NCBI GenBank assembly: GCA_951799425.1
Contig: OX637402.1
Coordinates: 33,819,492-33,883,491 of the forward strand
DNA length: 64,000 bases
Source: Ilex aquifolium
Lineage: Eukaryota; Streptophyta; Magnoliopsida; Aquifoliales; Aquifoliaceae
Direction of reading: 5' to 3'
This document shows, in pieces, positions 6,255 to 55,962 of this stretch. The position numbers were made by a program, and so were the translations under genes. Each line of letters begins with the position of its first letter. Position 1 is the stretch's first letter. Below the pieces are notes generated by a model. That model saw only the letters and a program-made list of their open reading frames with translations. It made no database searches and was not told where the DNA came from.

Positions 6255-6261
6255 GTGTTTG

Positions 6262-12590: not shown

Positions 12591-12603
12591 ATCTAATTAA
12601 TGA

Positions 12604-12703: not shown

Positions 12704-12711
12704 ATTAATGA

Positions 12712-28678: not shown

Positions 28679-29394
28679 GTTTGGGTGATTACCGGTTAAG
28701 CTATTAGCTTTACGGTTTTTTGTCAGAGTTTATATCATATATAATTTGTGTCTAATCCTAAAAAATATTTTTCTATTTATTAATTCGTGTTATACTCACT
28801 TCATATAATATATAAATTATATATAATGTTATATAAACGAATCGTATTATATTTTTTTTTATTAGTTTAAGAAAAATTCAAATTATTTAATTTTTTTTTT
28901 ATGTTTACGTCGTGTTAGTAAGTGGTGCTGATACCTCTACTTACACTAGACGGAGCCTACCCTAAAACGCTCTATCATGTCACATTCCAAGATGGGCCTC
29001 AAGTGGTGACCCAAGCCCAATGACCATTACTTTATACGATCCATACAATTTGTGTTCAACCATTTTTCAGACGAAATGTGACGGAGCCCAAAATCGAGAT
29101 TCTGAAGTCTAACCTCTAACAGATTATATGGCAAAGCCATGTCTTTGGTGGAAAGAAATAAATATAGTTTGACAAAAAAAATTAGTCTAGCAATGTTTAC
29201 TTGCCAAAGAAGCAAACGTGCCACCCAAGGAACTCTATTAATTATCAAGTCAAATACAAGGTTTTCACTTTCATACTCAAACAAGGATTCATAATAAATA
29301 TTGAAAGAGGATATCTGTGAACCAATTGTTTTTAAGTTTCTTTCAATGCTAAGAGATTAGTATTTTTCCGACGACGATCCAGAGAGTAGTTTTG
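28679..29394. other. Divergent intergenic region between two DUF295 genes
   Basis: 716 bp, AT-rich next to the left gene (TATATAAT runs near 28735-28830). It should hold promoters for both genes. No F-box coding remnant of the right gene was found on the plus strand. Confidence 0.4.
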
Positions 29395-30414
29395 ATGACG
29401 GAAATTTTTGAAGTTATTGAATCTGCAAAAAGATCACAAGCTCCAGACACCCCGTCACAGTTTATGGTTCCTCACTGCTGCCATTACAATAATAGCACCG
29501 AAGATTTCAGGTGCTGCTTCAATATTTCGAGCAACAAATTTCACCATTTGAGTCAACCAGATGCTCAAGGGAAGAGAATATGCGGATCATCAGGTGGATG
29601 GCTAATTATAGTCGGAAATAATTTTGAAATCTTTATGTTAAATCCTCTCACTAGAGCCCAAATCCAGCTTCCCTCAGTCTCTTCCTTGCTTGATCAAGAA
29701 GACACATCCATGCAAGTCTTGGGCAAAGCATCAACTGTTTTGATTCATAAAGCTATTCTAGTTTCGAATCCTGATAGCAACTTGGAAGGTTATAGTGTCA
29801 TGGTAATTTATGGAGACTGCAGAAAACTAGGGTTCCATAAAGAAGGAGACCATTCGTGGACTTCGCTTCAAGATGCTGGGTCTTTTTATGATGATGCTGT
29901 ACTCTGTGACCAGGTCTTGTATGCTGTAAACGAGTGTGGAAAAGTTATTGCCATTAGGGAACTGGGTAATTCCCCAGTGGTGGAAGAGATGGTGCCACCA
30001 TGGTTCTTTCAGGGTAACAAGGTTTATCTCGTGGAATTAGATGAGGAGCTCTACATAGTTATTCGGTTTCTGGAAGAGAGTACGGATTTTGGCTATAGAA
30101 CGCATAATTTTAAGGTTTATGAGGTTGATTTTTATGTGAAACTACATGACAGGATAAGAGGCATAGGCGAATGGGCAATTTTCCTAGGCCATAATCAATC
30201 AGCATCACTGTCGACTCGTCGTGTTGAAGGACTGAAAGAAAATTGCATCTATTTCACTGATGATAACACAGATGGATATAAGGATGGCGTTTTGGGGGGG
30301 CATGACACAGGTGTGTTTCACTTGGATGATGGGAGTATCGAGCCATTGCAGTGTTGTTCATCAGATTCGAGCTTTTTGCGACCACCCCCAATCTTGTTTA
30401 CACACAAGTCCTGA
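29395..30414 (+). CDS. DUF295 protein lacking an F-box
   Basis: Intronless, 339 aa from the ATG at 29395. From about residue 60 it is a clear paralogue of the gene at 27500: GSSGGWLIIVGNN, LNPLTRAQIQLPS, DHSWTSLQDAGSFYDDAVLCDQVLYAVNECGKVIA, NCIYFTDDN, HDTGVFHLDDGSIEPL. The N-terminal 55 residues contain no F-box, and none is readable just upstream. Without it the protein could not join an SCF complex in the usual way. It may be a functional propeller-only protein, a pseudogene, or a gene whose F-box exon was lost. The frame itself is undamaged. Confidence 0.75.
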   Translation: MTEIFEVIESAKRSQAPDTPSQFMVPHCCHYNNSTEDFRCCFNISSNKFHHLSQPDAQGKRICGSSGGWLIIVGNNFEIFMLNPLTRAQIQLPSVSSLLDQEDTSMQVLGKASTVLIHKAILVSNPDSNLEGYSVMVIYGDCRKLGFHKEGDHSWTSLQDAGSFYDDAVLCDQVLYAVNECGKVIAIRELGNSPVVEEMVPPWFFQGNKVYLVELDEELYIVIRFLEESTDFGYRTHNFKVYEVDFYVKLHDRIRGIGEWAIFLGHNQSASLSTRRVEGLKENCIYFTDDNTDGYKDGVLGGHDTGVFHLDDGSIEPLQCCSSDSSFLRPPPILFTHKS

Positions 30415-38024: not shown

Positions 38025-38029
38025 GATAT

Positions 38030-38740
38030 TGATGGTGTAAACCTCCGGATACGAGCTAAGGAACCAGATTAATTGGCGTGAACAGTTTGCATGGGGACTA
38101 ATATGGCATCTGAGCTACAAGGCTCATGAAGTGGAGAATGAAAGCTCAAATTAGTCGTGTATAATGTGTGAAATACGGTGGAAATATAGTGGTTCACCGG
38201 CCAGTGAGCTCGGCTAGTCCACTCTCTAATGGAGGCTCTTGCTCCTTCTTCTTTATTGATGAATTGAAGGTGTTACAGTCGAATACTCAGGGAACTAGGG
38301 TTTCAAAAAATCTCCCTCCTCTAATGGGGGATATCTCTTTCTTTTTATAGCCTCATATTTACCTCTAATACGGGACTATCCTACATTGAAGGGATCGTGC
38401 CCTATCTTCATCCACAATTCCGGAGTTACCTAAATTCCTTATGGCTGGCTTTAAACGGAGAGATCTTTGCCTTCTTCTGTGGGATCCTCCTTAGTTTTAG
38501 GAGGAGATCATGGTTAAATACGGGTTTTCTGCCTCGGATTGGATTCTACCTCCTTAATAAGGGTATCCGAGTCATCTTGTTGTTCCCTCAGCATTTCTCC
38601 TCCCGCGCCTTCGACTAGGAGCTCTTAGTGCTGACTGGATGAGCTCTGCTCATGGCTAGGGGAGCTCAGCTTATTTTGCCTGAGCTCCCGAGCTGAGCTC
38701 TCTTACTGAGCACGTGCCAGTTTTATTTTGGGTATCATCA
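38030..38740 (-). repeat. 3' LTR of the Tat element
   Basis: 711 bp, same length as the partner at 51037. A TATAAAAAG promoter box is on the minus strand at 38349-38341. Short ORFs in it occur identically in both LTRs and are not genes. Confidence 0.97.
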
Positions 38741-38760
38741 GTTGCCCCCCAGCCCTTGCC
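38741..38760 (-). other. Polypurine tract of the Tat element
   Basis: Reading leftwards, GGGCTGGGGGGCAAC immediately precedes the LTR start TGATG. This is the expected place and composition for the plus-strand primer. Confidence 0.75.
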
Positions 38761-39389
38761 TTGAGTTAGCTCAGGCAGGGGATGACTTGTACAAGACGAG
38801 TTAGACGTGCGTGTGGCTGGCACGTGGCTGTAGGATTTCTGACGGTTTTATAGCCATCATGACTTTTCTCGATTCCCGCGCACGTCTCAGCCCATGTCTC
38901 CCAGGCTTTAAATGCTTAAAACGGCTATCTAAACTGCTTCTTCGCACTATTCATCTTCTTTACTGCCCTTCGTCTCCGCTCTCTCTGTGATTCCAGTCCT
39001 TCTTGCCTTGGTTTTTCTATTTTCTTGCCTGAAATCGAATTTTCGGACCTCGTTTCGAAGACTTGCGACGCCTCCTTTTCCGATTTCGTTCCAAGTTCCT
39101 GTTTGCCACTATCCCTGGGTTAGGTACGTCCTTTGCCCTTATTTCTTCCTTTTTTGCTCTGGATCCCTCGAGTTCGAGGTGGTTATTGCATTTTTGGGCT
39201 TTTCGGTTCTTTTATTTTTGGAATCGTGACCATTGTCTAGCCCCACTTCACCACTTCGTGGATTGGGGTTCTGTAGTTCATATCCTTGCTGTTGGGAGCC
39301 ACTGTGTTGATTCCCGGGTCATTAGAGAGTGCCTGACTAATCCCCCTTTGCTCTATCGCTCTTTCCATCTTCCTTTTTCTCTCCCTATC
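38761..39389 (+). promoter_or_regulatory. Leader and presumed promoter of antisense gene A
   Basis: On the plus strand, a TTTAAATG near 38906 and a pyrimidine-rich stretch around 38935-38990 could be a core promoter and transcription start for the gene at 39390. An open frame upstream of its ATG lacks domain features and is probably leader. Confidence 0.25.
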
Positions 39390-42019
39390 ATGTCTGCTTC
39401 TTCTGAAGCCACTCGCTCCTCTGTTTCACTTCTAGGATCTAGGTCAGCCGGGGAAGATACGGATTTAGGGGAAGTTGGTGATGAGATTGATAATTTTCCG
39501 GCTGTAGAGGCTGTAGAGGCTGAGGTCTACGCCGAGGAGCCTCCCTCCACCTCATCTTCCCTGCCCCCCAGACCTGACAAAGGCAAAGCTAAGATAAGTG
39601 GAGTCGGGGTGGAGGAAAAAACCTCGTATCTAGGGCTTGCCTTTAGGCATGCCGAATCTGTGGGCTGCAGTAAAGAGGCCCCTAGGCTAATGAAGTCTTA
39701 TAAAGTTCGGTATGGTTTTCCCCCTGGGGTCGAACCCTGGTGCCCAGATCGATCCGTTTGTTATGTAGAAAAAGTTCATAACAGAGTCTGCTTCTTTCTT
39801 GCTGCTTTTGACAACGGCCTTCGCTTTCCTTTGCATCCCTTCATCAAGGCTGTTCTGCAACATTTTCATGTGTGCCCTTCCCAGATCTCCCCCAACTTCT
39901 ATGGCGTCATGCTTGGTCTGTTAGTCCTGTTTAAGAAGCATAAACTTGGGATTCCTAGCATTCCTTTGTTCTTAGAGCTCTTCAATGTAAAACCGACCTC
40001 CGGAGGCTTCTTGTATGCCTCCAAGCGTGCCAGCGTTAGGCAGCTCATCTCTGACATTCCGACCTCCCATAAACACTGGAAGGAACATTTCTTCTTTGTC
40101 GGGGGCACCAATTGGGAGTACAACCCTGCTGATAAGACAGACACACTCGGTATCCCTACGGCCTGGGCTGAACCAGATAATTTACGTGAGTCCTTACTTG
40201 AGTTCGAGCTCTGATCTGGAACCTGCCGGCCTCTTATCTTTTTCTTATTTGCATACTTTCTTCCTCTTAGGTGAACGCTACGAGCTCAGCCCTGAGGACA
40301 AAAAGTTGCTAGCAAAGTTGGAGAAGATCAAGCCAGAGAAGTACGCCGACTTGATTGAGTCAAGGAACCTGGTACAGCTAGGTCTGAGTCTTCATGTGGC
40401 GACTTTAGCGATCCCCTTGTCTGTTTTAGGGGCTGACGAAGGTGATTTCAACGCCATTCTTTTTCCTTTCTTCATTATCTTTCCTTCCTTTCTCTTTTTC
40501 TTTACATTTTCCTACTTCTTCCAGATCTTCCAGGTCCTTCTACCATGAAGGTTATTCCAGAAGAGCTTCAAGCCAAAATTGCAGAGCTGATGGAGGGTGG
40601 CAGGTCTAGGAAACGCAAAGCTCGGGTAGGCTCTGGGAGCGGGCCAAACACTCGAGCTAAGATCCCCAGGCTGGAAGCATCTTCTCCCCCCTCTGCAGCT
40701 GAAGGACAGGCTCCAAGCAAGGCTCCGCCCTCCTCCTCTGGAACTCCACAAGCTGCAACCACCTCTTTTTCCCCTCCAGTGGCCCCTTCTAAGTTGGCGT
40801 CTGCTCAGGAGAGGGATCAGGCTTCCCCTTCTTCTTCTGAGGTCAAGGAGGCTTTGGAATTGGTTCCCGACCTTCAACCCGGGAAGTTCGAATACAGTGC
40901 TTCTGGGAAGGTGACTGAAAAAGAGAGAAAGTCTGAGGAGGAAGATGAGGACTCCTTTTTTGACAATATAGACCTTGCTGCTGGAGCTCTTTCCTCTATC
41001 TTTTCTGAATCTGATGTCCTGAAGGCCGCTTCCATGCCCCTGGAGGAATCCATCTCTTTGGCCCTTCAGGGAGCTGCTACTGTGAGTGTTAACCCCCTGT
41101 CTCTCTTTGCTTGTTTGTATTTCGTGGTCTGACATTATTTGCTGTACTTTCCTTATATTCTCAGGCTGCCCTTCATACGAAAGGTCTGCTGCACCGAGTT
41201 CGCTCTCAAGAGAGCTCTTTCCAGGTCTTAAAGAAATACAAGACCAAGGTTTCAGAATTGTCTCTTGAGAATGAAGACCTCAGAGCTCAGGTGGAGAGCC
41301 TTAAAGTGCAGATGGAGGGTCTCAACGAACAGATGGTGAAGCAAGCCTCCGATCTCAAACATACACTGACAGTCAAGGCCAGAGCTGAGGAAGGGGAAAA
41401 GAAGACTCGGGATGAGCTGAAGGCGGTTAAGGAAGACCTGCAGGCTAAGGTTGAGGCGTGGTCCAAGGCTAACCAGGAGGCCTTTGACGCTAAGAGGGAG
41501 CTCATCCAGGTTAATCAAGATTATCTTGCCCTCAGTGAGGCTAACGGCAAACTCTGTGAGGAGCTCGAGGAGCAGAAATATTTGGTTCAAGAGAGAGACA
41601 AAGAGTTTGCCGAGCTTAAGGATGAGGCCACCACTTCATGGGCTACTGGATGGCTTGCTTTTAGGCGTAAGGCTACCAAAGCATATCCAGACCTTGATTT
41701 CGATCTCCCTATCCCCACTGAGGAGGAAATGGAAGAATCTGGCACTGACAATGAGGGGGATATCTCAGACTCCCCAGCTGCTGCCTTAAGTCAAGACACA
41801 CCCGCCCCTGGGACCTCAGAAGCTATTATCGCGCTCCCTGAGCCTTCAACAACGATTCCTGAGCTTTCTGCTGCAGCTCCTGCTGTTCCTGTTTCTGCAT
41901 CCTTTTCAGCTGTCGTGGTGTCTGAAGCCCTTGTTCAAGGTGAGCCCTCAGCAACAGAAGCAAGGGACTCCTCTACTGAGCTGCGAGATCCTTCAATCCC
42001 TCTTCTTCCAGAATCCTAG
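39390..42019 (+). CDS. Antisense accessory gene A of the Tat element: putative gypsy-type transposase-domain protein
   Basis: Opposite in strand to gag-pol. Four exons: 39390-40185, 40271-40381, 40525-41081 and 41165-42019. All introns are GT-AG with phases 1, 1, 0, and the joined frame is 772 aa with no stops. Residues 1-95 are acidic and Ser-rich. Residues about 115-245 form a conserved globular domain (FDNGLRFPLHPFI, HVCPSQISPNFYGVM, HKLGIPSIPLFLELF, WKEHFFFVGGTNW). I place this with the Pfam family named putative gypsy type transposon (Transposase_28, PF04195) from memory. A basic SRKRKAR near 329-335 could be a nuclear signal. A coiled coil spans about 497-620, and the tail is Ser/Pro/Glu-rich. 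Function is unknown. It has a shorter paralogue at 43181. Confidence 0.8.
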
Positions 42020-43180
42020 GTCTTTTTAGTTGTAATTTCTCTGTAAAGAATTTTTCGTGATGTAGTCTTTGACTTCATTTATTGCTCTTTTGCTGGCTTA
42101 GTATATATATACATATCTTTCAATTTCAGCATATATGTATTTTTGGATTTTGATTCGACTTCGACTCGAACCGCAACGGTGCACTTATTTGCCTGGCTTT
42201 GCATGCACTCAACTTTGTATACTCCCCTTGCCCCCTTTTGCTTTGAGGGGTGCTGTGCACTTCTTGAAGCAAAATTACTAGGTTTGAAGAGTACAGGGGA
42301 CTTGGTGTTATGTTCGACTGCTTTTCCCGAGCCTTTTAAGCTCGGTAGTTGGTACCCTAGGGGTCCACTCCTTATTCTTCTTCGTCCTAAGCTGCTCAAC
42401 TCTATATTCTGAACTGGCGTGCTCCTTCAGAGTTGCATACCTCGTGCTTGTGAGCTTATAAATTCTTGCTGAGCTAAGACGGTTCTTTTTTCGAACTTGA
42501 GAGCTCTGAGCTCTTTGTCTTTTCTGTATGAACTGAAGAGCGCTTTCTGAGCTATTTGGCTCTGTTGTCTGATCTTAAAGTTTATTTCTGAGCTTCGTGG
42601 TTCTTTTGTCTGAATTTACGGGTTCTGTCTGAGCTTCATGATTCTTTAAACGAACCCTTCTCTAGATCAGATAATAAATTTCGTTGCTCCATTTCTCTAA
42701 GAGTAGAAGACCTTCTTCTACGTTTCACCTCTCTTTTCCCCACATCTTGCTTTGCGGAGTGCTTTAGGCCTTCCTTAAGCGAGGTTTTGAGCTTTCACAC
42801 CTCAAAGATTTGGTATACAAGTGCTCTGTTTTTTACTGGGCTGAGCTCAAATATGGAGGGTATATTGCTTGGTGGGGTCAGAATTTTCGTTGGTCGTTTT
42901 GAGTGCAAATAGGAGGGGTAGTATCTGGTTTCTTTTCCCGCGTTTTTCTCTCAACCGCTTCCCATAACCGCCACATCTTTCCCTTTTCCATAACCGCAAC
43001 CACTTTCCATAACCGTAGCCACTTTCCATAACTGCTGCTACCTTTATTAATTAAGAAACTGAACAGGCCACTTGATTCCCTCTTTCTTGGCTCTTAGTTT
43101 CCTGAAAAGCTCCCAAGTGCATGACCTATTCTTGACTTTCTTCCTGATTTCTTGCATCTTTTTCCTTACCAGCATTTTCG
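42020..43180. other. Spacer between antisense genes A and B
   Basis: Leader and promoter region of gene B. It contains loosely repeated TGAGCT-centred stretches at 42430-42660 and short tandem CACTTTCCATAACCG units near 42960-43030. No ORF with recognisable features. Confidence 0.45.
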
Positions 43181-44269
43181 ATGGCTGCCTCCGCTTCTTC
43201 TTTGTTCCAGGAACGATCCTCCTTTGGAATCGAACGGGAGTGGCATTGTCGCTATCTGTCCCCTTCAATACTTGAATCTTCTGACTTGGCGGGCATCAAG
43301 AAACGGTTTTTCCCTGATCTTGACTTGCCTATGCGAGTCTCTTCCTCCGACGAGCCTTGTAACTACCTTCCCCGAGGGGAAGTCTGTTTCTTTGAAGGTG
43401 CTATGGACATGGGACTTCGCCTTCCCATTCATCCGGCCATTGGGCGAGTTTTTGCCTATTATGGCCTGTGTCCTTCTCACCTTTCTCCACGAGGATGGGG
43501 TGCTATGGTAAGCTTCTTCTTGTTCTGCCGCCTGCATGCTCTTGGCAGGTTCCCCTTTGTCTCTGAGTTTCTATACTTCTTTGAGATTGAGGAAGATAAT
43601 GCCCCCTGCTTCAGTTTTTTCCGTTGGAGGGATTTCAATTTACGCCCTCTGGTTCTAGATCTTCCCTCCAACCCTGAAGGGTGGTCTGAGCGTTTCTTCT
43701 TCGCTTCTGGAGAGGCTTGGAGGTCTCCTGAGGATCGCTGTCGTAAAGCCAGGATTCCTCGGTCCTGGAAGAGCTTCTCTCGTATTGGTAAGCTCGATCA
43801 TGGCTCTTTTGAGTACTTTCCTTTTAAAAATATGCTCTGATTATGTCCTTGCTGTGTAGATCCACCTGATCTGGATTTACCAGGGATGGTGAATATCAAC
43901 GAGCTGTTGCTTGTGGAGTCTAAGACTTATTCCGAGCTGATGACGAGCGCAAACCTCTATTTGCTTGGGGCTGAGGCTACTGAGTTTGAGTTTTCCACTA
44001 TTCCTTACTCTTCCTGGACCTCTTTTTCTGATTCTGATGAGGATGGGGATTCTGACAAGGACGGAAACACCGTCACGAGTTCGAGGAAGCGTAAGAGGGA
44101 CGATTCCCCTTCTCCTGACTCTCTGTCCTCCATCTTCCTTACCTCTATTGGTCAGAAGCTCCTTAACTCGCTTCAAAAGGCTGAGCAGGAAAGGGATGAG
44201 CTGAAGAAAGAGAATGCTAGCCTGAAGGGAGAGGTTGCTGAGCTGAAATCTGAGCTTAAGAAAGACTAG
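43181..44269 (+). CDS. Antisense accessory gene B of the Tat element: paralogue of gene A
   Basis: Two exons: 43181-43787 and 43860-44269. The GT-AG intron is in phase 1, giving 338 aa. Residues about 55-180 align by eye with the gene A domain: CFFEGAMDMGLRLPIHPAI, GLCPSHLSPRGWGAM, HALGRFPFVSEFLYFF, WSERFFFASGEAW. After the intron it reads DPPDLDLPGM where gene A reads DLPGPSTM. An acidic stretch, a basic RKRKR and a C-terminal coiled coil (EQERDELKKENASLKGEVAELK split over two heptad runs) follow. It lacks gene A's exon 2 and long C-terminus. It looks intact, which is notable in an element whose integrase frame is broken. Function is unknown; DNA or RNA binding is only a guess from the basic stretch. 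Confidence 0.78.
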
Positions 44270-44657
44270 GATCTTTGTTTCCTTGTATCGTTCTTTCTTT
44301 TCTTAAGCGATATCAGACTATGACTCTTCTTGTATTTTTCTGAATATTTGCACTCTCGGATATTTCGAATGCCAGACTTTTCATTCATCTCGAATTCTGT
44401 TAGGTTATTTCAGCTTACGCAAAAAGTTCGAAACACGAACGTAGATGGAAAACAGAAGATCATGTCTGCTCTGACCTTGGTCTTTCACTGACCCCCTAGG
44501 TCGAACCACGGAGATCGATGGAGAACAGAAGATCATGTCTGCTCCGACCTTACTTCTCATCTGACCTCATAGGTGTTCTCTGTTGTTCTGGACCTTTCGA
44601 GGTCTTTGAGTGTGTAGGCAGTGCACAAGGGTATCCGGTCCTGGGGGGTGGACCATT
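44270..44657. other. Spacer with a short direct repeat
   Basis: ACAGAAGATCATGTCTGCTC occurs twice (about 44452 and 44526) in slightly varied surroundings. It includes the end of gene B's presumed 3' UTR. Confidence 0.5.
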
Positions 44658-45502
44658 GGTGTCTCCACGGAGCGTTCAGCCTTGAATTTGACTGTTGGTG
44701 TCTCCAAGAAGCATTCAGCCTTGAATTTGACTGTTGGTGTCTCCAAGAAGCGTTCAGCCTTGAATTTGGCTGTTGGTGTCTCCAAGAAGCGTTCAGCCTT
44801 GAATTTTGTACGAGCTGAAGAGCTCGTCTTTAATTTATAAACTTTGAAGCTTATCGTGTTTTTATGAGCTGAAGAGTTCATCTTTGATTTATAAGCTTTG
44901 AAGCTTATCGGGTTTCTATGAGCTGAAGAGCTCATCTTAAATTTATGGGCTGAAGAGCTCATCGTTTGTTTATGAGCTGAAGAGCTCATCTTGCATTTAT
45001 AAGCTTTGAAGCTTATCTTTTGTTTATGAGCTGAAGAGCTCATCTTGCATTTATAAGCTTTGAAGCTTATCGTTTGTTTATGAGCTGAAGAGCTCATCTT
45101 GCATTTATAAGCTTTGAAGCTTATCGTTTGTTTATGAGCTGAAAAGCTCATCTTGCATTTATAAGCTTTGAAGCTTATCATTTGTTTATGAGCTGAATAG
45201 CTCATCTTGCATTTATAAGCTTTGAAGCTTATCTTTTGTTTATGAGCTGAAGAGCTCATCTTGCATTTATAAGCTTTGAAGCTTATCGTTTGTTTATGAG
45301 CTGAACAGCTCATCTTGCATTTATAAGCTTTGAAGCTTATCGTTTGTTTATGAGCTGAAGAGCTCATCTTGCATTTATAAGCTTTGAAGCTTATCTTTTG
45401 TTTATGAGCTGAAGAGCTCATCTTGCTACTTTGGAGACCATTGGAGGGTGAATAAAAGGCTTGCTCTTTCTTATTTAAAAGTAGTTCTATTACAAGTAAC
45501 AC
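44567..45502 (-). CDS. Open frame across the tandem repeats, in the pol frame
   Basis: Directly after the pol stop (TAA at 45503-45505) the same frame stays open for 311 codons, with no ATG at its start (GTG). It would encode 18-residue repeats (ISFKAYKCKM, SSSAHKQT) and 13-residue repeats. Both periods, 54 and 39, are multiples of three. It could be translated only by readthrough or reinitiation. It may equally be a by-product of the repeat structure. Confidence 0.25.
   Translation of the reverse strand: MLLVIELLLNKKEQAFYSPSNGLQSSKMSSSAHKQKISFKAYKCKMSSSAHKQTISFKAYKCKMSCSAHKQTISFKAYKCKMSSSAHKQKISFKAYKCKMSYSAHKQMISFKAYKCKMSFSAHKQTISFKAYKCKMSSSAHKQTISFKAYKCKMSSSAHKQKISFKAYKCKMSSSAHKQTMSSSAHKFKMSSSAHRNPISFKAYKSKMNSSAHKNTISFKVYKLKTSSSARTKFKAERFLETPTAKFKAERFLETPTVKFKAECFLETPTVKFKAERSVETPMVHPPGPDTLVHCLHTQRPRKVQNNREHL
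44658..44813. repeat. 39-bp tandem repeat, 4 copies
   Basis: Units begin GGTGTCTCCAAGAAGCGTTC at 44658, 44697, 44736 and 44775. They are nearly identical apart from the edges. The array abuts the 54-bp array. Confidence 0.95.
44812..45426. repeat. 54-bp tandem repeat, 11 copies plus a partial
   Basis: Units start GAGCTGAAGAGCTCATC at 44812, 44866, 44920, 44974, 45028, 45082, 45136, 45190, 45244, 45298 and 45352, with a partial at 45406. The eight units from 44974 are almost identical; the three on the left have diverged. Each holds two small palindromes, TGAGCT-GAAG-AGCTCA and ATAAGCTT-TG-AAGCTTAT. Tandem arrays in this 3' position are known from Tat/Ogre elements and can seed satellite DNA. 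Confidence 0.97.
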
Positions 45503-46360
45503 TTACTGAAAAAACTTCTTAAGGTGCTCGGCATTCCACGAGTGAGGTAGAACCTTTCCTTCCTCTGTTTGCAACTCGTAATTCCCTGGTCTGATTATCC
45601 TTGACACGATATAGGGCCCCTCCCAATTGGGTCCCAATTTCCCATGCGTGGGATCCTTTCTCGCAAGCATAAGCCTCCTAAGTACCAAATCTCCAACCTT
45701 GAAACTTCTGTGTCTTACCCTCCTGTCATAGTACCTTGCAGTTTTCCTTTGGTATGTACGGACACGGTGCAGAGCTCTGTCCCTCTTTTCATCCAAGAGA
45801 TCGAGGTTTAGCAAGAGAGACTCATCATTGTGCTCGGAATCCGCAAACTCCACCCTTGGTGATTGGAGCCCTATCTCCACTGGGGCCACTGCCTCGGTCC
45901 CAAAGGCCAAAGCAAAGGGGGTTTCCTGAGTCGCAGATCTGGCGGTGGTCCTGTAGGCCCACAACACCTCCGGAATGTACTCCACCCACTTGCCTTTCAG
46001 GTTTTCTAGCTTGGTCTTCAAAGCTGACTTTATGGTTCTTATTGTGACCTCTGCCTGCCCATTAGACTGGGGATGGGCAGGAGCTGAGAAATAGTTCTTG
46101 ATTCCGAGCTCGGCACAAAAACTTTTGAACTTTGAATTATCAAACTGCTTTCCATTGTCAGACACGAATGCTCTGGGAACTCCAAACCTGCAAACTATCG
46201 ACTTCCAAACGAAGTTTTGAACTTTTTGCTCTGTGATCGTTGCCAAAGGTTCAACCTCCGCCCATTTAGTAAAGTAATCCACTCCTATGATGGCAAACTT
46301 GCACTGCCCCACACCGGTGGGAAGGGGTCCCAGAATGTCCAACCCCCACTGCTGAAAAGG
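45503..46360 (-). pseudogene. Integrase core and C-terminus, cut off by an in-frame TGA
   Basis: Same frame as the gag-pol ORF, separated from it only by the TGA at 46361-46363. The part after the stop holds the catalytic core: first Asp in IIGVDYFTKWAE, second Asp in FVSDNGKQF, and the Glu in PQSNGQAEVTIRTIK, with normal DDE spacing. The C-terminal region includes FKVGDLVLRR and GKLGPNWEGPYIV, the usual GPY/F-type module. The family normally has Trp where the TGA stands. Without suppression this copy makes no complete integrase, so its own mobility is doubtful although it could be helped in trans. Confidence 0.85.
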
Positions 46361-49300
46361 TCATGGGCTTACCACCGAGGTTAGGAGCTCGGGAGGACAG
46401 TGGGACATATTAGCATGCTCTTGGCAAGTTTTGCATTTTCTTACTAAGTCGGTGGCGCTTGTGAGCATGGTGGGCCAATAATATCCTTGCCTCAGTACTT
46501 TTCCTGCCAAGGCCCGAGCTCCTATGTGGTTGCCACATATCCCCTCATGTACTTCTCTGAGTATGTAGTTAGCATCTTCGTCTCCTACGCACTTAAGGAG
46601 AGGCATTGAAAATCCATGCTTGTACAGTTTCCCTTGCATCAGGGAAAATCTGGCTGACCTGGCCCTTAGCTTGGATGCCTCCTTGGCATTATTTGGCAAA
46701 GTTCCATTCTGAAGGTACTCTACGATGGGATCCATCCAGCTCGGCTGAGCTTCAATTGATAGAATTTCCTCTTCTTCGATGCTTACCGAGGGCTTTGGAA
46801 GGTGCTCTACTGGAATTAGCCTATCCAAATCCTCCTGCGAGGCAGTTGCTAACCTTGCCAGAGCATCTGCTCGTGAGTTCTCCACTCTAGGCACGTGTCT
46901 GACCTTAACCTGCACGAACTGTTTCATTAGTTCTCGTACCTTTTTGAGGTACAGGACCATCTTCTCGCCTCTTGCCTCGTAACATTCTTCTATCTGCTTC
47001 ACCACCAGTTGAGAATCGCTGCAGATCTCCAGCTGCTCTGCTTCCATAGAATAGGCAAGATTAAGCCCAGCGATGACGGCTTCATATTCTGCCTCATTAT
47101 TTGAAGCTTTGAACCCAAATCTGAGGGCATATTCGACGTCTATTCCTTCTGGGGAGGTCAGGATCATTCCTGCACCGCTTCCCTGAGCATTGGCAGCTCC
47201 ATCCACTGAAAGCTTCCATATGGGAAGGTCCGGTACTAAATCCGTGGTTTCCATAGGCGCTGCTGCTGTGAATTCTGCAATAAAATCTGCCAAAATTTGC
47301 CCTTTGATGGCAGCTCTTGGCTTGTACCTGATATCAAACTCGCTGAGCTCTACGGCCCATTTAACCAACCTCCCTGAGGATTCTGGCTTGTGTAGTACTT
47401 GCTTCATTGGCTGATCTGTTGGAACCTCAACAGTATGAGCCTGGAAATAAGGTCTAAGTCTCCTAGCTGTTGTAACCAGAGCTAGAACGAGTTTTTCCAT
47501 CCTTGGATATCTCTCCTCTGCCCCCCTCAGAGCTCTGCTACAGTAGTAGACTGGTTGCTGAGCTCTGTCTCGCTCCCTAACTAGCGCTGCACTTGTTGAA
47601 AAATCTGAAACTGCTAGGTAGAGGGTGAGAATTTCCCCTTCTAGAGGGCTCACCAGAACAGAGGGAGAGCTCATATATCTCTTTAGGTCTTCGAATGCTT
47701 CTTCACACTTGGCATCCCAGTGGAATGCCTTCTTCAAGATTTGAAAAAATGGCTGGCATTTATCGCTAGCCCTAGACACAAAACGGCTCAGTGCAGCTAT
47801 CCTGCCTGTCAAACGTTGCACCTCTTTCGTGTTGGATGGTGATTGCATTTCCATCATTGCTCTAACCTTTTCTGGATTGGCTTCAATCCCTCTGCTGTTG
47901 ACTATAAAGCCCAGAAATTTTCCTGCCGAGACCCCAAATGCGCATTTCGCAGGGTTTAACTTCATTTTGTATTCCCTTAGAATTCGGAATGACTCAGCTA
48001 AGTGCTCGATGTGGAGCTCTGCTTTCAGTGACTTCACTAGCATGTCATCAATGTAAACTTCCATGGATGCTCCTATTTGCTTCTGGAACATTTTATTTAC
48101 TAACCGCTGGTAAGTGGCTCCAGCGTTCTTCAATCCGAAGGGCATGACCTGATAACAATATGTTCCCTGTTCAGTCACAAAGGAGGTCTTCTCCTGATCG
48201 CTGGGATCCATCCTGATCTGGTTGTAGCCTGAGAAGGCGTCCATGAAGCTGAGGAGCTCGTGCCCTGCAGTGGCATCCACTATTAGGTCAATCCGAGGTA
48301 AAGGAAAACTGTCCTTGGGGCATGCTCGGTTGAGATCAGTGAAGTCGATGCACAATCGCCACTTCCCATTGGTTTTCTTTACAAGAACTACATTTGCTAA
48401 CCAAGTGGGGTAATGAACCTCCCTGATAGCCTTGGCATGGAGGAGTTTGCTGACCTCCTCATTGATTGCCTTTTGCCTTTCAGAAGCAAAGCTCCTCCTC
48501 TTCTGTTTGATGGGTTTGCAAGTTGGGTTAACGCATAGCTTGTGGGTAATAACCGATGGGTCAATCCCTTCCATGTCTTCTTGCTTCCAAGCGAACACTC
48601 CTATATTCTCTTTTAGGAATTGAATGAGGAGTCCTTTGAGCTCAGCGTTCAGTTTGGAACCCACATAAACGAGGTGTTCTGGCTTCTCATCAAGCTGAAC
48701 TGGTTCCAGCTCTTCCGATGGCATTGGTCTTGTCTCCATTTCATCTCTCATGTCGAGCTCATCCAGTTGGATGTTCTCAACCTCCTTCCTTTTTATAGAA
48801 GCCATGTAGCATTCCCGTGCTACGCGCTGGTCTCCTCGGACCACTCCGATTCCATTCTCTGTGGGGAACTTCACGACTAAATGATAGGCAGAAGGGATTG
48901 CCTTCATAGAATTTAAGGATGGCCTTCCAAGCAAGATGTTGTACGCAGATGGTGCATCGACTACTAGGAATTTGACAGTGGTAGTGGCTTGGCAAGGTGG
49001 GTCCCCCAGGGTGAGCACGAGCTGGATTGAACCCAGGGGGAGCACCCTTTCCCCGGAGAATCCTAGTAAGTGAGTGCTTACTGGTTCAAGCTTCTGCCTT
49101 CCTATGTCCATCTTGTCGAACGCAGGTGCGAAAATAATATCTGCCGAGCTCCCGTTATCAATTAGAACCCGATGAACGGTTCTATTTGCCACCACTGCTC
49201 GTACCACCAATGGATCATCATGGGGGTATTGGCACCCTTCTAAATCAGCATCTGAAAAAGTGATAGCTGTATCCAAACGTGGTGCTTTGGATACAGCATG

Positions 49301-50974
49301 CACTTCGAGAGCTTCTTCGGCTCTGATCCGTCGGAGGTGCGCCTTCCGAGCTGAGCTAGACTCTCCACCTCCGGCGAACCCTCCAGATATCACTCTGATT
49401 TCCCCTAGAGGCTGCTGGTGTGGTGCTGGTGCCTGCTGCCGGGGTGGCGGAGGCGGAAGAGCTCGGTTCTGGTCATCGTTGGCTATAAAACGACGCAGCT
49501 GACCTCGCTGGATCAAGAACTCGATTTCCTTCTTTAATTGAATGCAGTCATCAGTGTGGTGCCCATGATCCCGGTGATAATCACAGTACTTCGTGGGGTC
49601 TCTCTTTGCCGGGTCTGCCTTCATCCTAGGTGGCCATTTTAAAAATTTCTCGTTCTGGACCTCATACAGTACTTCTGACACAGCAGCGGTGAGTGGGGTA
49701 AACCGCTGAGGCCCATACCTGGGTTGTAGTTCAGGTTGCATGGGACCCAGCCGATCTCTGACATTTCCTCTCCTTTTTGGCGATCGGTCTCTGTCTCTCC
49801 TTGGGGACCTCTCTCGTCCTTTTTCCTTCCTAGGGCTTCTGTCCCTTTTCTTTTCTTCTTTTTCCTTTTCCTTTCGTGAAGTCGTACCGACCACCTTAGA
49901 AAGGAGTGCCTCTTCACCGTTTATATATTTCTCTGCCTTGGCTAACACTTCAGCCATACTTGCCTGAGGGTTTTTTGATATGGAGAACATCAAATCCTTT
50001 GATTGCACTCCCAATCCTGCAATGAAAGCAGTTATGGCGAATTTTTCATCCGGGACGTCTACTTTCAATGTCTCCAAGTTAAATCTTTGGACATAAGTCC
50101 TCAGGTTTTCCTGGGGACCTTGCTTCACATTCAGCAGGTGGTAGCTCGGCTTTCTGTGTATCCGGGCTCCTATAAAGTGAGAGACAAAAGCAATGGAGAG
50201 TTCTTTAAAGGATGAGATCGAGGCTGGTGGGAGCCTATGAAACCAGTTTAAGGCGGAGCCTTTCAGCGTGATGGCAAAAGCTCTGCAGCGTACAGGATCC
50301 TGGTACCCATGTAACTCCATCTGGTTCTTGTAAGTGTTGAGATGATCCACGGGATCTTTCGATCCGTCAAAGACCTCCATTTGGGGCATCCTGAACTTTG
50401 ATGGGAGAGGGAAATGTAGCACCCCCGTGGTGAATGGGGATTCGGTTTGCTGAACCAAAACATCCATTGTAACCGGGGCCTTACTCTTTACGGCATCTTT
50501 CATATGACTGAGCTCTTGCTGGAAGTCTTTGAAGCGTTGCTCCCAGTGCTGCTCTCTCCTGTCTTGCGGATAAGGGAGAAAATCACCTCTCTCACCCCGG
50601 TCGTTCCGACTTTGCACTTCGTCGTTATGGCCATTACCAGGGGGTACGTAAGGGACGTATCCCCTGGCCTGGCTGCCTTCTCCCCCCTCGCTGACCTCTC
50701 TAAGGGGGTCCCAGTATCGAGGTTCCCTATGAGGGGGATTATTCTGGCCTTCTTGGGCCGGTGGTGCCTCCCGTGGGCGTTGTACGAGTTTTGACAGCTC
50801 TTCGTTTTCCTTTAGCAAGCGTTGGTTGACGAGACGAAGGGCCTCCAACTCGTTATTAATGGGGGAATTCGCCTCCTGGATGTTCCCGGGTTGTCTGCCG
50901 TGGGCAGTTTCCGGCTGATCTTGCATTCGGGGTAGGTTCGTTTGACTTCTGCTCATATTTCGAGTTATTACCAT
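46361..50974 (-). CDS. Gag-Pol polyprotein of the Tat element (to the premature stop)
   Basis: 1537 aa from the ATG at 50972-50974, 42 bp inside the PBS. Order by approximate residue: Gag domain 190-300 (MEVFDGSKDPVDHLNTYK, GSALNWFHRLP); a CCHC-like knuckle CDYHRDHGHHTDDC near 463; aspartic protease with IDNGSSADI near 600; reverse transcriptase about 800-1010 with FMDAFSGYNQI and the YIDDM catalytic motif near 973; RNase H about 1060-1190; a second RNase H about 1240-1370 (LSVDGAANAQGSGAG, ASNNEAEYEAVIAGL, CSDSQLVVKQI); and the HHCC zinc domain of integrase about 1470-1525. It ends at TGA 46361-46363 before the integrase core. The protease, RT and RNase H motifs look undamaged. Transcription would start in the right LTR (TATAAAAAG at 51356-51348). 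Confidence 0.95.
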   Translation of the reverse strand: MVITRNMSRSQTNLPRMQDQPETAHGRQPGNIQEANSPINNELEALRLVNQRLLKENEELSKLVQRPREAPPAQEGQNNPPHREPRYWDPLREVSEGGEGSQARGYVPYVPPGNGHNDEVQSRNDRGERGDFLPYPQDRREQHWEQRFKDFQQELSHMKDAVKSKAPVTMDVLVQQTESPFTTGVLHFPLPSKFRMPQMEVFDGSKDPVDHLNTYKNQMELHGYQDPVRCRAFAITLKGSALNWFHRLPPASISSFKELSIAFVSHFIGARIHRKPSYHLLNVKQGPQENLRTYVQRFNLETLKVDVPDEKFAITAFIAGLGVQSKDLMFSISKNPQASMAEVLAKAEKYINGEEALLSKVVGTTSRKEKEKEEKKRDRSPRKEKGRERSPRRDRDRSPKRRGNVRDRLGPMQPELQPRYGPQRFTPLTAAVSEVLYEVQNEKFLKWPPRMKADPAKRDPTKYCDYHRDHGHHTDDCIQLKKEIEFLIQRGQLRRFIANDDQNRALPPPPPRQQAPAPHQQPLGEIRVISGGFAGGGESSSARKAHLRRIRAEEALEVHAVSKAPRLDTAITFSDADLEGCQYPHDDPLVVRAVVANRTVHRVLIDNGSSADIIFAPAFDKMDIGRQKLEPVSTHLLGFSGERVLPLGSIQLVLTLGDPPCQATTTVKFLVVDAPSAYNILLGRPSLNSMKAIPSAYHLVVKFPTENGIGVVRGDQRVARECYMASIKRKEVENIQLDELDMRDEMETRPMPSEELEPVQLDEKPEHLVYVGSKLNAELKGLLIQFLKENIGVFAWKQEDMEGIDPSVITHKLCVNPTCKPIKQKRRSFASERQKAINEEVSKLLHAKAIREVHYPTWLANVVLVKKTNGKWRLCIDFTDLNRACPKDSFPLPRIDLIVDATAGHELLSFMDAFSGYNQIRMDPSDQEKTSFVTEQGTYCYQVMPFGLKNAGATYQRLVNKMFQKQIGASMEVYIDDMLVKSLKAELHIEHLAESFRILREYKMKLNPAKCAFGVSAGKFLGFIVNSRGIEANPEKVRAMMEMQSPSNTKEVQRLTGRIAALSRFVSRASDKCQPFFQILKKAFHWDAKCEEAFEDLKRYMSSPSVLVSPLEGEILTLYLAVSDFSTSAALVRERDRAQQPVYYCSRALRGAEERYPRMEKLVLALVTTARRLRPYFQAHTVEVPTDQPMKQVLHKPESSGRLVKWAVELSEFDIRYKPRAAIKGQILADFIAEFTAAAPMETTDLVPDLPIWKLSVDGAANAQGSGAGMILTSPEGIDVEYALRFGFKASNNEAEYEAVIAGLNLAYSMEAEQLEICSDSQLVVKQIEECYEARGEKMVLYLKKVRELMKQFVQVKVRHVPRVENSRADALARLATASQEDLDRLIPVEHLPKPSVSIEEEEILSIEAQPSWMDPIVEYLQNGTLPNNAKEASKLRARSARFSLMQGKLYKHGFSMPLLKCVGDEDANYILREVHEGICGNHIGARALAGKVLRQGYYWPTMLTSATDLVRKCKTCQEHANMSHCPPELLTSVVSP

Positions 50975-51015
50975 CAGTCACTGAGGAATCAGCTTACTTG
51001 TAACAGGAACAGTCG

Positions 51016-51033
51016 TTCCCACAGACGGCGCCA
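51016..51033 (-). other. Primer binding site of the Tat element
   Basis: Three bases inside the 5' LTR the minus strand reads TGGCGCCGTCTGTGGGAA. The TGGCGCC start is complementary to tRNA 3' ends of the GGCGCCA type. Which tRNA is primed was not determined. Confidence 0.75.
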
Positions 51034-51036
51034 AAC

Positions 51037-51747
51037 TGATGGTGTAAACCTCCGGATACGAGCTAAGGAACCAGATTAATTGGCGTGAACAGTTTGCATG
51101 GGGACTAATATGGCATCTGAGCTACAAGACTCATGAAGTGGAGAATGAAAGCTCAAATTAGTCGTGTATAATGTGTGAAATACGGTGGAAATATAGTGGT
51201 TCACCGGCCAGTGAGCTCGGCTAGTCCACTCTCTAATGGAGGCTCTTGCTCCTTCTTCTTTATTGATGAATTGAAGGTGTTACAGTCGAATACTCAGGGA
51301 ACTAGGGTTTCAAAAAATCTCCCTCCTCTAATGGGGGATATCTCTTTCTTTTTATAGCCTCATATTTACCTCTAATACGGGACTATCCTACATTGAAGGG
51401 ATCGTGCCCTATCTTCATCCACAATTCCGGAGTTACCTAAATTCCTTATGGCTGGCTTTAAACGGAGAGATCTTTGCCTTCTTCTGTGGGATCCTCCTTA
51501 GTTTTAGGAGGAGATCATGGTTAAATACGGGTTTTCTGCCTCGGATTGGATTCTACCTCCTTAATAAGGGTATCCGAGTCATCTTGTTGTTCCCTCAGCA
51601 TTTCTCCTCTCGCGCCTTCGACTAGGAGCTCTTAGTGCTGACTGGATGAGCTCTGCTCATGGCTAGGGGAGCTCAGCTTATTTTGCCTGAGCTCCCGAGC
51701 TGAGCTCTCTTACTGAGCACGTGCCAGTTTTATTCTGGGTATCATCA
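51037..51747 (-). repeat. 5' LTR of the Tat element
   Basis: 711 bp, differing from the left LTR at three bases by my reading. TATA box on the minus strand at 51356-51348. Confidence 0.97.
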
Positions 51748-51752
51748 GATAT

Positions 51753-52298: not shown

Positions 52299-52826
52299 TG
52301 ATGATGCACAAAATTATCTCGTGCAAGATCAACAGTCGAGTATGTGAAGAGGTGTAATTAATAGATAATAAATAAAGCAATCAATGACAGTAATGTAAAT
52401 ATTGTATAGTGGTTCGGTCGGGTGACCTACTCCACTCTCGAAAACGGCAACGGTGGTTGGTGGCTCTTTATTGATGAATAAAATAAAAGAGAGAGCTCCG
52501 GGGAAGGTACAATAGTTAGGAGAAAGAAACTATGTGTAGAGAGGTGTGATGACATACCAAGGTGTGTCATCTCATGTGGAGAGGGCTTACAATTTATAGG
52601 TATGGTGAGGCATTGACGTGAGTGTGAGAGCACTAATTATTCGAGGAGGATAGTTACAAAAGGTAAGTACAATTAATTCTTGTGTATCCATTCCGATGAT
52701 CTCTCCCCACGTGCTCTTTTCTTCTTGGACTCCTTGGAATTTGGACTTCGCCGAATCCATGAATTGGGCTTGACCCGCCTTGTAGCTGATTTGCTGGGTT
52801 TGGCCCGGTTAGATTTGGGCTCATCA
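52299..52826 (-). repeat. 3' LTR of the LARD-like element
   Basis: 528 bp. A TATAAATT box is on the minus strand at 52598-52591. A purine-rich stretch on the minus strand (GGGGCATGGGGGGTAAA) borders it inside as the PPT. Confidence 0.88.
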
Positions 52827-53579
52827 TTTACCCCCCATGCCCCAAGCCCTAGTAGTGATTAGGGGTTGAGGGCATGAGTGAGCTCATTCCTTTAGGTAAA
52901 ACAGATGTCTTGTTCCATATGGTGGCTTCCCTTCCTCCTAGAAGGGGTGAGATCTGATGCCCCTAGTGTTTCTCGGTCAAGGTCCAATGGTTAGGTTGCT
53001 TCCCGAGAGATGGGACCCAGTGGTGCCCCCATTCCTTCCCAGACTGTGACTTCTGTGTGTATCAGAGCTAGCCCTTGTATCGTTGTAGGAGTTGACTTCA
53101 GTGCGGTCTTCTATGGGAACTTTAGCTCCACATAGCTGTCCTACATATAGTAGTGACTCGATGTCAATGCTTTGACTTGACTTTGGTCAAGGAGCGACTT
53201 TGGTGGTCTGTGACTCGTGGGGAAATCAGAGAGGTTGGATCTCGAGGTCCAAGGGGTATTACCAATACCGCCATGGAAGGGTCTTCCACGGTATGCCTCT
53301 CCTCTCAACTTTGACTTTGTTCTCGCCTTTTTTCCTTCATGTTTTGTTTTTTGAATGCTTGCAAGCGGCTGCCGCTTTTTCCTGCCTTTCCCAAGGACGA
53401 CCAAGCTTGGAGAGGCATTCAAGCATCTGGTAACATAGAGGCAGGCACGGGGGGCTGCTGAAAGCAGTTGAGGTTGGCTCATGAGAGAATAAGACCTCTT
53501 GAGGCCAGGCTTTTGACGACTCGCGAGAGGCGCTAAGCTGGAGATTGAGGCTGCCTGGGAGCAGAGATAGGATTAGACC
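52827..53579. other. Interior of the LARD-like element, left
   Basis: No domain-bearing ORF on either strand. Confidence 0.5.
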
Positions 53580-54260
53580 GAGCTTCTTGGCAACTCGCGA
53601 GAGAGCGCAAAGCTGGATACATAGACTGCTTAGGAGTAGAGGTAGGTTTAGGCCGAGCTTCTTGGCGACTCGCGAGAGAGCGCGAAGCTGGATACATAGA
53701 CTGCTTAGGAGCAGAGGTAGGAGTAGGCCGAGCTTCTTGGCGACTCACGAGAGAGTGCGAAGCTGGATACATAGGCTGCTTAGCAGCAAAGGTAGGATTA
53801 GGCCGAGCTCCTTAGCGACTCGCGAGAGAGTACGAAGTTGGATACATAGACTGCTTGGGAGCAAAGGTAAGATAAGACCGAGCTTCTTGGTGACTCGCGA
53901 GAGAGCGCAAAACTGGATACATAGACTGCTTGGGAGCAGAGATTGGATTAAGCCGAGCTTCTTGGCGACTCGTGAGAGAGTGCGAACCTGGATATTTAGA
54001 TTGTTTAGAAACAGCGGTAGGAATATGTCGAGCTTCTTGGCAACTCGCGAGAGAGTGCGAAGCTGGATACATAGACTGCTTGGGAGCAGAGGTAAGATAA
54101 GGTCGAGCTTCTTGCCGACTCGCGATAGAGCTAGATACATAGACTGTTTAGGAGTAGAGATTGGATTAGGCCAAGCTTCTTGGCGACTCGCGAGAGAGCT
54201 GGATACATAGACTGCTTGAGAGTAGAGATTGGATTAGGCCGAGCTTCTTGGCGACTTGTG
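53580..54260. repeat. 75-bp tandem repeat, about 9-10 units
   Basis: Units start GAGCTTCTTGGCGACTCGCG at 53580, 53655, 53730, 53805, 53880, 53955, 54030 and 54105, then two shortened 68-bp units and a partial at 54241. A plus-strand frame is open for 221 codons across it (25-residue repeats), as is a minus-strand frame. Composition and repeat structure explain both. Confidence 0.93.
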
Positions 54261-54309
54261 AGAAAATGCGAAGCTGGAGATTTAGGGTGCTTGCATGAGA
54301 GCACTGTTG

Positions 54310-54740
54310 GGCGCTTAGGTTAGGCACGAACGCCGAGGAGCGCTACTGGGCTTAGTGTCGGCTGGGCGCCAATAGGCACAGACGTCGAGGGGCACCGCTG
54401 GGTACGGACACTAAGGGGCGCTGGGCGCAGCTGGGCATGGACGCCGAGGGGTGCTGGACGCTACTGGACACGAACACCGAGGGGTGCTGGACGCCGCTGG
54501 ACACAAACGCCGAGGGGCGCCGCTAAGGCACGGACGCCGAGGTGCACTAGTAGGCAAGGCGGGGTGACACCGCATGGGCACAAGAACAGCTGCCGAGGAT
54601 TTTGGGCGACGCCAGACAATGGGCCTTGGTTCTGGGCGACACCAGGCAACTCCTTGGTGCTGGCCTTGGCATGGGCAACGCCTTGGACGCTAGGGCGCGG
54701 ACGACGTCGGGCGTTGAGGCGCAGACGACGCTGGGTCTTC
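54310..54740. repeat. Degenerate GGCGC/GACGCCGAGG repeats
   Basis: Imperfect units of roughly 30-35 bp (GGACGCCGAGGGGTGCTGG, GGGCACGGACGC) in an unusually GC-rich stretch of the LARD-like interior. No coding signal. Confidence 0.7.
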
Positions 54741-55400
54741 CCTGGTAGAATTCAAGGATTCCAACTAGCTCAAGGATTAGAATCAGTTCAACACTGCAAT
54801 CCATGTGAGGACAGATAACAGAAGTTTTAGAGGTTGATTCTTATTCTTGTTACCCGCTCGCTTTCGACCACCTTGTACGAACAAAGATGATGGCGGGAGA
54901 GTTTTGGTAAACCTGCAAGACAAGAGAAAATTTAGGTGAACCGATGGCCGGAGGCGGCCAAAGGGACTCCGATGCTTAAGTCAGTAAACAAGTCGAAGAA
55001 AAAGTATATGGTGAATAGGCTAGAATTCCATAACATACATGGTACTCGGAACATTTATTTATAATGGTATAGGAAGCGGTGTTCCATATGGACTTGAATT
55101 TCAGGTTGTCATAGGATAGACCTCATTACCAATCCCCTAGACATTCGAGGTAGAGTCGTATTAGGACGTTGAGTCCTAAATTATAGGATAAGATGTGCTC
55201 ACCAGGACGTGTTGTTTATCAACAATCCTTTGTTACTCAAAGTAGAGTTTCAATAGGTTTCTAGGTCCCGAGTCAATCCCTAGCCAAGTAACAAGTGGGT
55301 GCTACTGGACGAGGACGACGAGGGGAATGACGTGAGGGCTTGGGCAACACTAGGCTTGGATGACACCTTACTGGGTGGATTGGGTGACACCTTGGAGAAG
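54741..55400. other. Interior of the LARD-like element, middle
   Basis: No recognisable coding or repeat structure. Confidence 0.4.
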
Positions 55401-55404
55401 CGGT

Positions 55405-55941: not shown

Positions 55942-55959
55942 TTCCCACAGACAGTACCA
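55942..55959 (-). other. PBS-like site of the LARD-like element
   Basis: The minus strand reads TGGTACTGTCTGTGGGAA, three bases inside the right LTR. It matches the Tat PBS region except for the GCGCC/TACT difference at positions 4-8. Confidence 0.6.
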
Positions 55960-55962
55960 AAC

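Follow-up and report, generated by a model that had tools for sequence, protein, structure and literature searches.

The stretch of DNA analysed here (the window) comprises 64,000 nucleotides of the 800-Mb Ilex aquifolium genome (C12:33819492-33883491). It contains a long terminal repeat (LTR) retrotransposon at 38030-51747 that encodes gag-pol on the minus strand. Between pol and the 3' LTR, this element carries two predicted intron-bearing genes on the plus strand, designated A and B:

39390-42019, plus strand: gene A, 4 exons, 792 amino acids (aa); TRP28 domain, basic cluster around RKRK, coiled-coil-like stretch
40186-40270, plus strand: gene A intron 1, 85 nt, phase 1, GT-AG
40442-40524, plus strand: gene A intron 2, 83 nt, phase 1, GT-AG
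41082-41164, plus strand: gene A intron 3, 83 nt, phase 0, GT-AG
43181-44269, plus strand: gene B, 2 exons, 338 aa; TRP28 domain, RKRKR, leucine-zipper-like C-terminus
43788-43859, plus strand: gene B intron, 72 nt, phase 1, GT-AG, at the same place as gene A intron 1

The exons of gene A lie at 39390-40185, 40271-40441, 40525-41081 and 41165-42019, and when joined they form a frame whose only stop is the final one; those of gene B lie at 43181-43787 and 43860-44269. On base composition alone, the chance of a stop-free joined frame is 1.6e-16 for gene A and 6e-7 for gene B. The introns are T-rich (42-54% T, compared with 23-34% in the exons). A preliminary description of this locus, made from the sequence alone, had proposed two spliced-type genes in this position and orientation, with four GT-AG introns and stop-free joined frames. 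These features were confirmed, as were the two exons and 338 aa of gene B; for gene A the four exons stand, but the joined frame encodes 792 aa rather than the 772 aa given previously. Its suggestion that the encoded domain is of the PF04195 type was also upheld: PF04195 (Transposase_28) matches aa 133-201 of protein A with 35.4 bits and aa 68-136 of protein B with 38.5 bits (gathering cut-off 26.2), and was the only family over its cut-off in a Pfam scan of the two proteins. Antisense open reading frames (ORFs) with a domain of this type are known from the same lineage, as had been stated (PMC11963269).

Proteins A and B have the same domain order: TRP28, followed by a basic cluster resembling a nuclear localisation signal, followed by a coiled-coil-like stretch (near aa 540-575 in A, by a simple heptad count, and about aa 307-337 in B). 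Gene B was considered as a candidate basic leucine zipper (bZIP) gene and rejected: RKRKR (aa 278-282) is separate from the zipper-like part, which begins at about aa 307, and no bZIP match was found at E values up to 1.

The exon-intron pattern of gene A is largely visible in other TRP28 loci of the genome. The intron 1 donor, GTGAGT, is found at the same codon in all eight other-family loci compared. In DNA alignments with four other-family loci, exons 1, 3 and 4 are 70-72, 62-65 and 63-66% identical, respectively (the exon 4 values cover about 40% of its length), while the introns are 43-60% identical; introns 1 and 3 retain their donors and acceptors in 4/4 loci. Among the protein matches listed, those to gene A break near predicted introns 1-3 in most loci, and in one (L012) the exon 3 frame resumes with gene A's motif. 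For gene B, comparison of the window with a locus of a sister family (L059) shows 1017 nt of exon without an insertion or deletion and an intron of 73 nt in place of 72. Within the family of the window element itself, the four introns are GT-AG in 19 of 20 copies; the remaining copy has a rearrangement affecting introns 1 and 2, and intron 3 is GT-AG in all 20. This is the pattern that removed introns would leave, and splicing of both genes is predicted.

Between families, the encoded proteins have changed much more slowly than their synonymous sites. Gene A exon 1 was compared with eight other-family loci (from 30 fetched, out of 150 scored among 5837 first-look candidates), giving synonymous divergence (dS) of 1.04-1.34, nonsynonymous divergence (dN) of 0.21-0.23 and dN/dS of 0.17-0.21 (bootstrap limits 0.09-0.32), a result tempered by the presence of close relatives among these loci, which are thus not eight independent tests. 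Gene B differs from its counterpart in L059 by 37 synonymous and 21 nonsynonymous changes in 338 codons, for a dN/dS of 0.15 (0.08-0.27), a figure likewise tempered by its origin in a single family pair. In the same comparison, gene A exon 4 has a dS of 1.89 and a ratio of 0.23 (upper limit 0.38) and exon 3 is saturated; infinite-dS bootstrap draws were entered as 0, which deprives the lower limits of both exons of meaning. Codons containing gaps, N or stops were excluded from all of these computations, including those of within-family polymorphism (piN/piS) below. These ratios indicate purifying selection on A and B between families. Both genes appear to have been kept working by evolution, and the element probably needs them, as the preliminary description had supposed from other evidence. 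That evidence, the better condition of A and B relative to integrase, does not hold: given three LTR differences, A, B and gag-pol should together have gained about 19 substitutions, with expected nonsense changes of 0.20 in A, 0.08 in B and 0.53 in gag-pol, and with 0.28 for the two genes and 0.53 for gag-pol, intact A and B beside one pol stop are uninformative with respect to selection. The single stop is expected noise, and the argument from it was rejected.

The genes are likewise present in other copies and families, which the usefulness claim had demanded. Twenty same-family copies were taken from 39 other scored matches among 1562 candidates; they were chosen as the best matches to exon 1 of gene B, a choice biased towards intact copies of B. 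Gene B is stop-free and of the same length in 17 of these, with two more in frame at other lengths, and gene A is full length and stop-free in 12. Genome-wide, the best 150 of 6702 gene B candidates are all at least 95% identical, and 147 of them are stop-free in the matched stretch. At some gene B loci the open frame is 373 aa, at others 230 aa, pointing to a further subfamily.

We consider it very probable that A and B are real accessory genes, whose predicted spliced mRNAs would come from the strand opposite the genomic RNA. Several observations weigh against this. Gene A is disrupted in 8 of the 20 same-family copies. For A, piN/piS is 0.67 (0.47-1.08) in the window and 19 near-identical copies and 0.82 (0.67-0.996) in a 21-row set; for B, the corresponding values are 0.58 (0.29-1.31) and 0.60 (0.30-1.37). 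The smaller set drops one copy with a rearranged gene A start, which was excluded after it was seen to be an outlier. The selection predicted across copies is therefore clear between families, where dN/dS is well below 1, but not among near-identical copies, where the intervals approach or reach 1; such a weak ratio is expected if most differences postdate insertion. Gene A exon 2 is 49-55% identical to the four other-family loci, an intron-like level, and the intron 2 donor aligned in 0/4 of them. At two loci (L010 and L036) the gene A protein match runs through intron 1 or beyond. The genomic junction counts given below show that the introns are not lost, which is no demonstration of splicing.

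Two alternative accounts of the reading frames were weighed. That A and B are chance or captured host frames of one copy is extremely improbable, and nothing was found in its favour: PF04195 has 5837 first-look candidates in the genome, all 150 of those scored exceeded the cut-off, and conserved structure, selection and presence in other copies and families contradict this account. It is also very unlikely that the antisense RNA itself is what matters (through double-stranded RNA, small RNAs or interference), with the frames as passengers. Roles for antisense RNA have been discussed (PMC7264820, PMC12786077), but the dN/dS of 0.15-0.21 falls on the encoded proteins, and between the window and L059 the frame-shifting length change in gene B is in the intron, with none in the exons.

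The placement of A and B has a consequence for their introns. Genomic RNA carries these introns as reverse complements, which read CT..AC and so present no standard splice sites; splicing therefore cannot strip them during retrotransposition, and they are inherited in each cycle. A search of the 800-Mb genome with 28-mers (up to 2 mismatches) is in keeping with this claim of the preliminary description: the exon-intron junction of gene B exon 1 occurs 228 times and that of gene A intron 3 occurs 121 times, whereas the exon-exon junctions of B and of gene A introns 2 and 3 occur 0 times. The search covered these three exon-exon and two exon-intron junctions.

Genes A and B are related to one another. 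Their proteins align with 31% identity over 179 aa (E 5e-24), and both have an intron that splits a codon (266 in A, 203 in B) in phase 1, seven codons past the Trp of an IPxxW motif. The protein that follows this shared intron still resembles its counterpart (30/2000 shuffles scored as well). The proportion of differing synonymous sites (pS) is 0.746, compared with 0.757 for shuffled pairing, and is saturated; the nonsynonymous proportion (pN) is 0.479, compared with 0.735 (sd 0.023). These features identify A and B as old duplicates with a shared intron. The simplest reading is that this intron predates the A/B duplication and has survived many rounds of retrotransposition since.

Comparison with the sister family suggests a mosaic history. 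At L059, gene B is 94% and the tandem array behind it (described below) about 92% identical to the window, while identity ranges over 43-80% across 200-bp windows of gene A and is 79% for the LTR. Identity steps up to about 90% just past the gene A stop, near 42.05-42.14 kb, although the high part is uneven, dropping to 59% in one 200-bp window ahead of gene B and to 67-78% in the stretch that separates gene B from the array. No integrase was found in the 1.2 kb after the L059 array; a piece from another locus of the same family (L061) contains pol and integrase that are 97-99% identical to those of the window element. From this pattern, gene A, with its flank, and the LTR look to have been exchanged relative to the rest, such that gene A looks swapped relative to the sister family. 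In another family (L060), gene A is present but there is no gene B between gene A and the end of integrase; a different, 41-bp array is found there (5034-5424 in reverse-complement coordinates), just after gene A and in a segment with an approximately 70% match to window 42020-43180. It may be that every antisense gene is followed by an array of its own. The 41-bp array is a weak candidate for a second palindromic system: its dyad with 6-bp arms is not significant (216/2000 shuffled units). The integrase match in L060 is split by about 2.3 kb at approximately 5572-7930 (reverse-complement coordinates), probably a later insertion.

The palindromic and repeated noncoding sequences of the element are as follows:

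38619-38700: cluster of five GAGCTC palindromes in the LTR, 82 bp; 0/2000 dinucleotide shuffles of the LTR contain even 3 in a stretch of this length
38639-38653, second copy at 51646-51660: LTR dyad ATGAGC-TCT-GCTCAT; 5/5000 LTR shuffles contain it
44656-44806: 39-bp tandem repeat, 3.9 copies
44807-45426: 54-bp tandem array, 11.4 copies, each of two 27-bp half-units; 23 palindromic sites

Gene B and pol converge, ending at 44269 and 45503, respectively, and the 54-bp array lies in the gap between them. Its dyads are mainly ATGAGCT-GAAG-AGCTCAT and ATAAGCT-TTGA-AGCTTAT, and 20 of the 23 are perfect. A change present in both arms distinguishes the two kinds, and a third variant carries a further paired change of this sort. 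Variation is lower in the arms than in the loops and linkers (7/308 compared with 23/286 cells, Fisher 0.0013; 7 compared with 17 distinct changes, Fisher 0.025), figures that are generous because the units are related by duplication. The window contains 12 instances of the pattern ATGAGCN{0,8}GCTCAT, with 0.01 expected: 10 belong to the array, where the spacer is 6, and each LTR has 1, with a spacer of 3. Of 20 same-family copies, 18 retain the exact LTR dyad. GAGCTC by itself is not array-specific, since it is overrepresented across much of the element, including pol (15, compared with 2.1 expected). The possibility that the array is a copy of LTR sequence was rejected: alignment of the 200-bp LTR end with the array is not significant (45/300 shuffles), and the dyad alone is shared. 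A G-box, CACGTG, is present in each LTR (38711 and 51718) beside the GAGCTC cluster.

A 45-base array unit occurs 1322 times in the genome (reversed control, 0). Of 19 arrays on contig C1, at least 8 lie no more than 3 kb from a listed gene B, which is no proof of linkage. Near 13.043-13.045 Mb of this contig, array units are about 2.2-2.5 kb from a gene A intron 3 site, compared with 3.7-4.2 kb in the other listed cases; this is perhaps an element without gene B.

The array might be a neutral satellite that arose by slippage and unequal exchange, which we regard as a serious candidate at somewhat below even chances. Arrays are common in the Retand lineage (PMC11963269), the array length in 17 of 20 copies equals that of the window or differs by a multiple of 54, and the array of L060 is a different one without a significant dyad. 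Neutrality sits less well with the lower variation of the arms (in units that are not independent), with the two arm changes matched on both sides and with the related palindrome in the LTR. Alternatively, the array could separate the two converging transcription units as a boundary at which transcription is stopped or insulated, perhaps via RNA hairpins. Its position agrees with such a role, and both strands fold far better than shuffled sequence (z -14.5 and -10.7, 20 shuffles each). Any array of palindromes folds well, however, so that folding cannot separate this role from protein binding, and the LTR palindromes are left unexplained; we consider the boundary role possible but rather unlikely.

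A third account, which we hold tentatively and at less than even chances, is that proteins A and B are nuclear dimers that bind the array and LTR palindromes of their own element, controlling its transcription or lifting its silencing. From transcription onward we infer the steps, building on gene structures and selection that can be read from the DNA itself. Each gene would most likely be transcribed from a plus-strand promoter upstream of it, and the transcripts spliced; the proteins would be imported into the nucleus through the basic cluster, would dimerise through the coiled coil and would act on the element's own DNA, for which the palindromes are the candidate target. The outcome would be transcriptional control, or relief from silencing of the kind that VANC provides to VANDAL elements (PMC5735166, PMC10398659). 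Palindromes common to array and LTR make the function a question of binding that is open to experiment.

Two points speak against this proposal. The LTR end of L059 has four GAGCTC palindromes but lacks the exact LTR dyad, which does not suit an invariant LTR site. Among solved structures, the TRP28 domain has no sequence relative, and our structural model of it (mean predicted local distance difference test score [pLDDT] 37) is too poor for use; DNA binding thus rests on a prediction reported in PMC11963269. It is also possible, though doubtful, that the proteins instead work in the replication particle or help the integration complex to enter the nucleus, with the array as a separate feature. 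Both proteins have basic clusters, and entry of the integration complex into the nucleus, in a role like that of retroviral accessory proteins, has been discussed (PMC7264820); recurrence of the palindromes in the LTR, on the other hand, is not needed for import. Extending the binding proposal, A, B and the palindromes could form a self-recognition system, a retrotransposon counterpart of VANC in which gene A is swappable between families as a module. We think this unlikely as matters stand, but if true, many "separate" antisense ORFs in published surveys (TRP28, Smc-like coiled coil) would be exons of one spliced gene.

The remaining parts of the element that carries A and B are as follows:

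38025-38029, right copy at 51748-51752: target site duplication (TSD) GATAT
38030-38740, minus strand: 3' LTR, 711 bp, TG..CA, 3 mismatches to 51037-51747
45503-50974, minus strand: gag-pol in a single frame, with one in-frame stop, in integrase
51037-51747, minus strand: 5' LTR, with TTTGGCGCCG just inside as the putative primer binding site (PBS)

The internal region is 12,296 bp. No tRNA was found in a tRNA scan. Plant substitution rates are 1.3e-8 to 7e-9 per site and year, and with three differences between the LTRs these place insertion at roughly 0.16-0.30 million years ago; the element is thus young, as first proposed. A Pfam profile search of the minus strand identified gag, reverse transcriptase (RT), two RNase H (RH) domains and integrase (INT). 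The gag-pol stop is codon 1538 of 1824, between the zinc-binding and core integrase matches; a frameshift in integrase was considered and rejected, the lesion being this one stop. The LTRs, TSD, gag and the order RT-RNase H-integrase place the element in Ty3/gypsy. RT_RNaseH matches 1117-1213, RVT_3/RNase_H 1257-1376 and zinc-binding INT 1469-1520, so that a second RNase H, judged by position, lies between RH and INT, which is the mark of the Tat clade (Ogre/Retand arrangement; PMC6317226). In having antisense PF04195 genes at this location, beyond pol and before the 3' LTR, the element also shows a mark of the Retand lineage, of which it is a putative member. Viral contig scans found no relative and a plasmid search found no match.

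An older LTR element lies at 52299-56538, about 550 bp from the young one. Its LTRs are about 87% identical, with an apparent TSD of AAACC, and it contains a 75-bp tandem array (53502-54278) and has no match to the gag-pol of the young element. The two have a PBS-like GTCTGTGGGAAC in common, and the older one is probably a non-autonomous relative. Two related-looking genes in opposite orientation, at 27500-28678 and 29392-30414, are presumably host genes of the F-box type.

With respect to known systems, VANDALs are DNA transposons, while the window element is an LTR retrotransposon. The VANDAL/VANC system of Arabidopsis may be similar, and only in how it works, combining an element-encoded protein with short motifs in noncoding tandem arrays of the same element (PMC5735166, PMC10398659). 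For the proteins, the comparison extends to the Pfam scan of A and B, in which PF04195 alone passed a cut-off. Sireviruses have palindromic repeated motifs both in their LTRs and in the internal noncoding part, but these are Ty1/copia elements whose motifs mostly have a CGG-CCG core (PMC2829016), in contrast to the Ty3/gypsy window element, in which the core is AGCT/GAGCTC and the motifs lie mostly in an array beside an antisense gene. Plant LTR elements are generally without introns (PMC12786077). Ogre and EVADE are plant LTR retrotransposons that have them (PMC6317226, PMC12786077), in the sense transcript and serving gag-pol expression, whereas those of the window element are in antisense genes.

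The closest likeness is to elements with an antisense accessory gene in the same place, among them maize Grande (gene23), rice RIRE2 and Silene Retand (ORF4) (PMC7264820). The product of Grande gene23 is reported to be nuclear and the gene to be transcribed from a promoter upstream of it; the 2020 review that describes it does not use the word "intron" in its accessible text, yet urges that spliced and antisense transcripts be looked for (PMC7264820). Among Retand elements, antisense TRP28 ORFs were reported in 97% of clusters, with only two exceptions among the 63 analysed in detail (Vicient 2025, PMC11963269), where an earlier survey with getorf, at a minimum of 250 codons, had found the domain in 23% (PMC6317226). 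As in the window element, the published Retand elements have an antisense PF04195 gene and tandem arrays between pol and the 3' LTR, and its 711-bp LTR and 12,296-bp internal region fall within the published ranges of 315-1194 and 7380-12869 (PMC11963269). They differ in that the published ORFs come from ORF Finder, in a text whose accessible part lacks the word "intron", while the window element is modelled with genes of four and two exons that are paralogous TRP28 genes. Neither the ORF Finder survey nor the getorf survey, as described in their available texts, joins exons (PMC11963269, PMC6317226). In the literature accessible to us, no report was found of introns in antisense TRP28 genes or of two TRP28 genes per element, which is not proof of absence. 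The antisense TRP28 gene of Retand is thus already known, so far catalogued as a single ORF of unknown function, and what appears to go beyond the published texts is the intron-bearing structure and the presence of two such genes in one element, together with their old paralogy and shared intron, the conservation of most exons and splice sites, the between-family selection, the persistence of the introns, the apparent swap of gene A and the palindromic array with its relative in the LTR. If A and B are spliced and selected, ORF-based surveys have cut antisense genes of this kind into pieces, and an antisense placement allows retrotransposons to keep genes with introns for an unlimited time.

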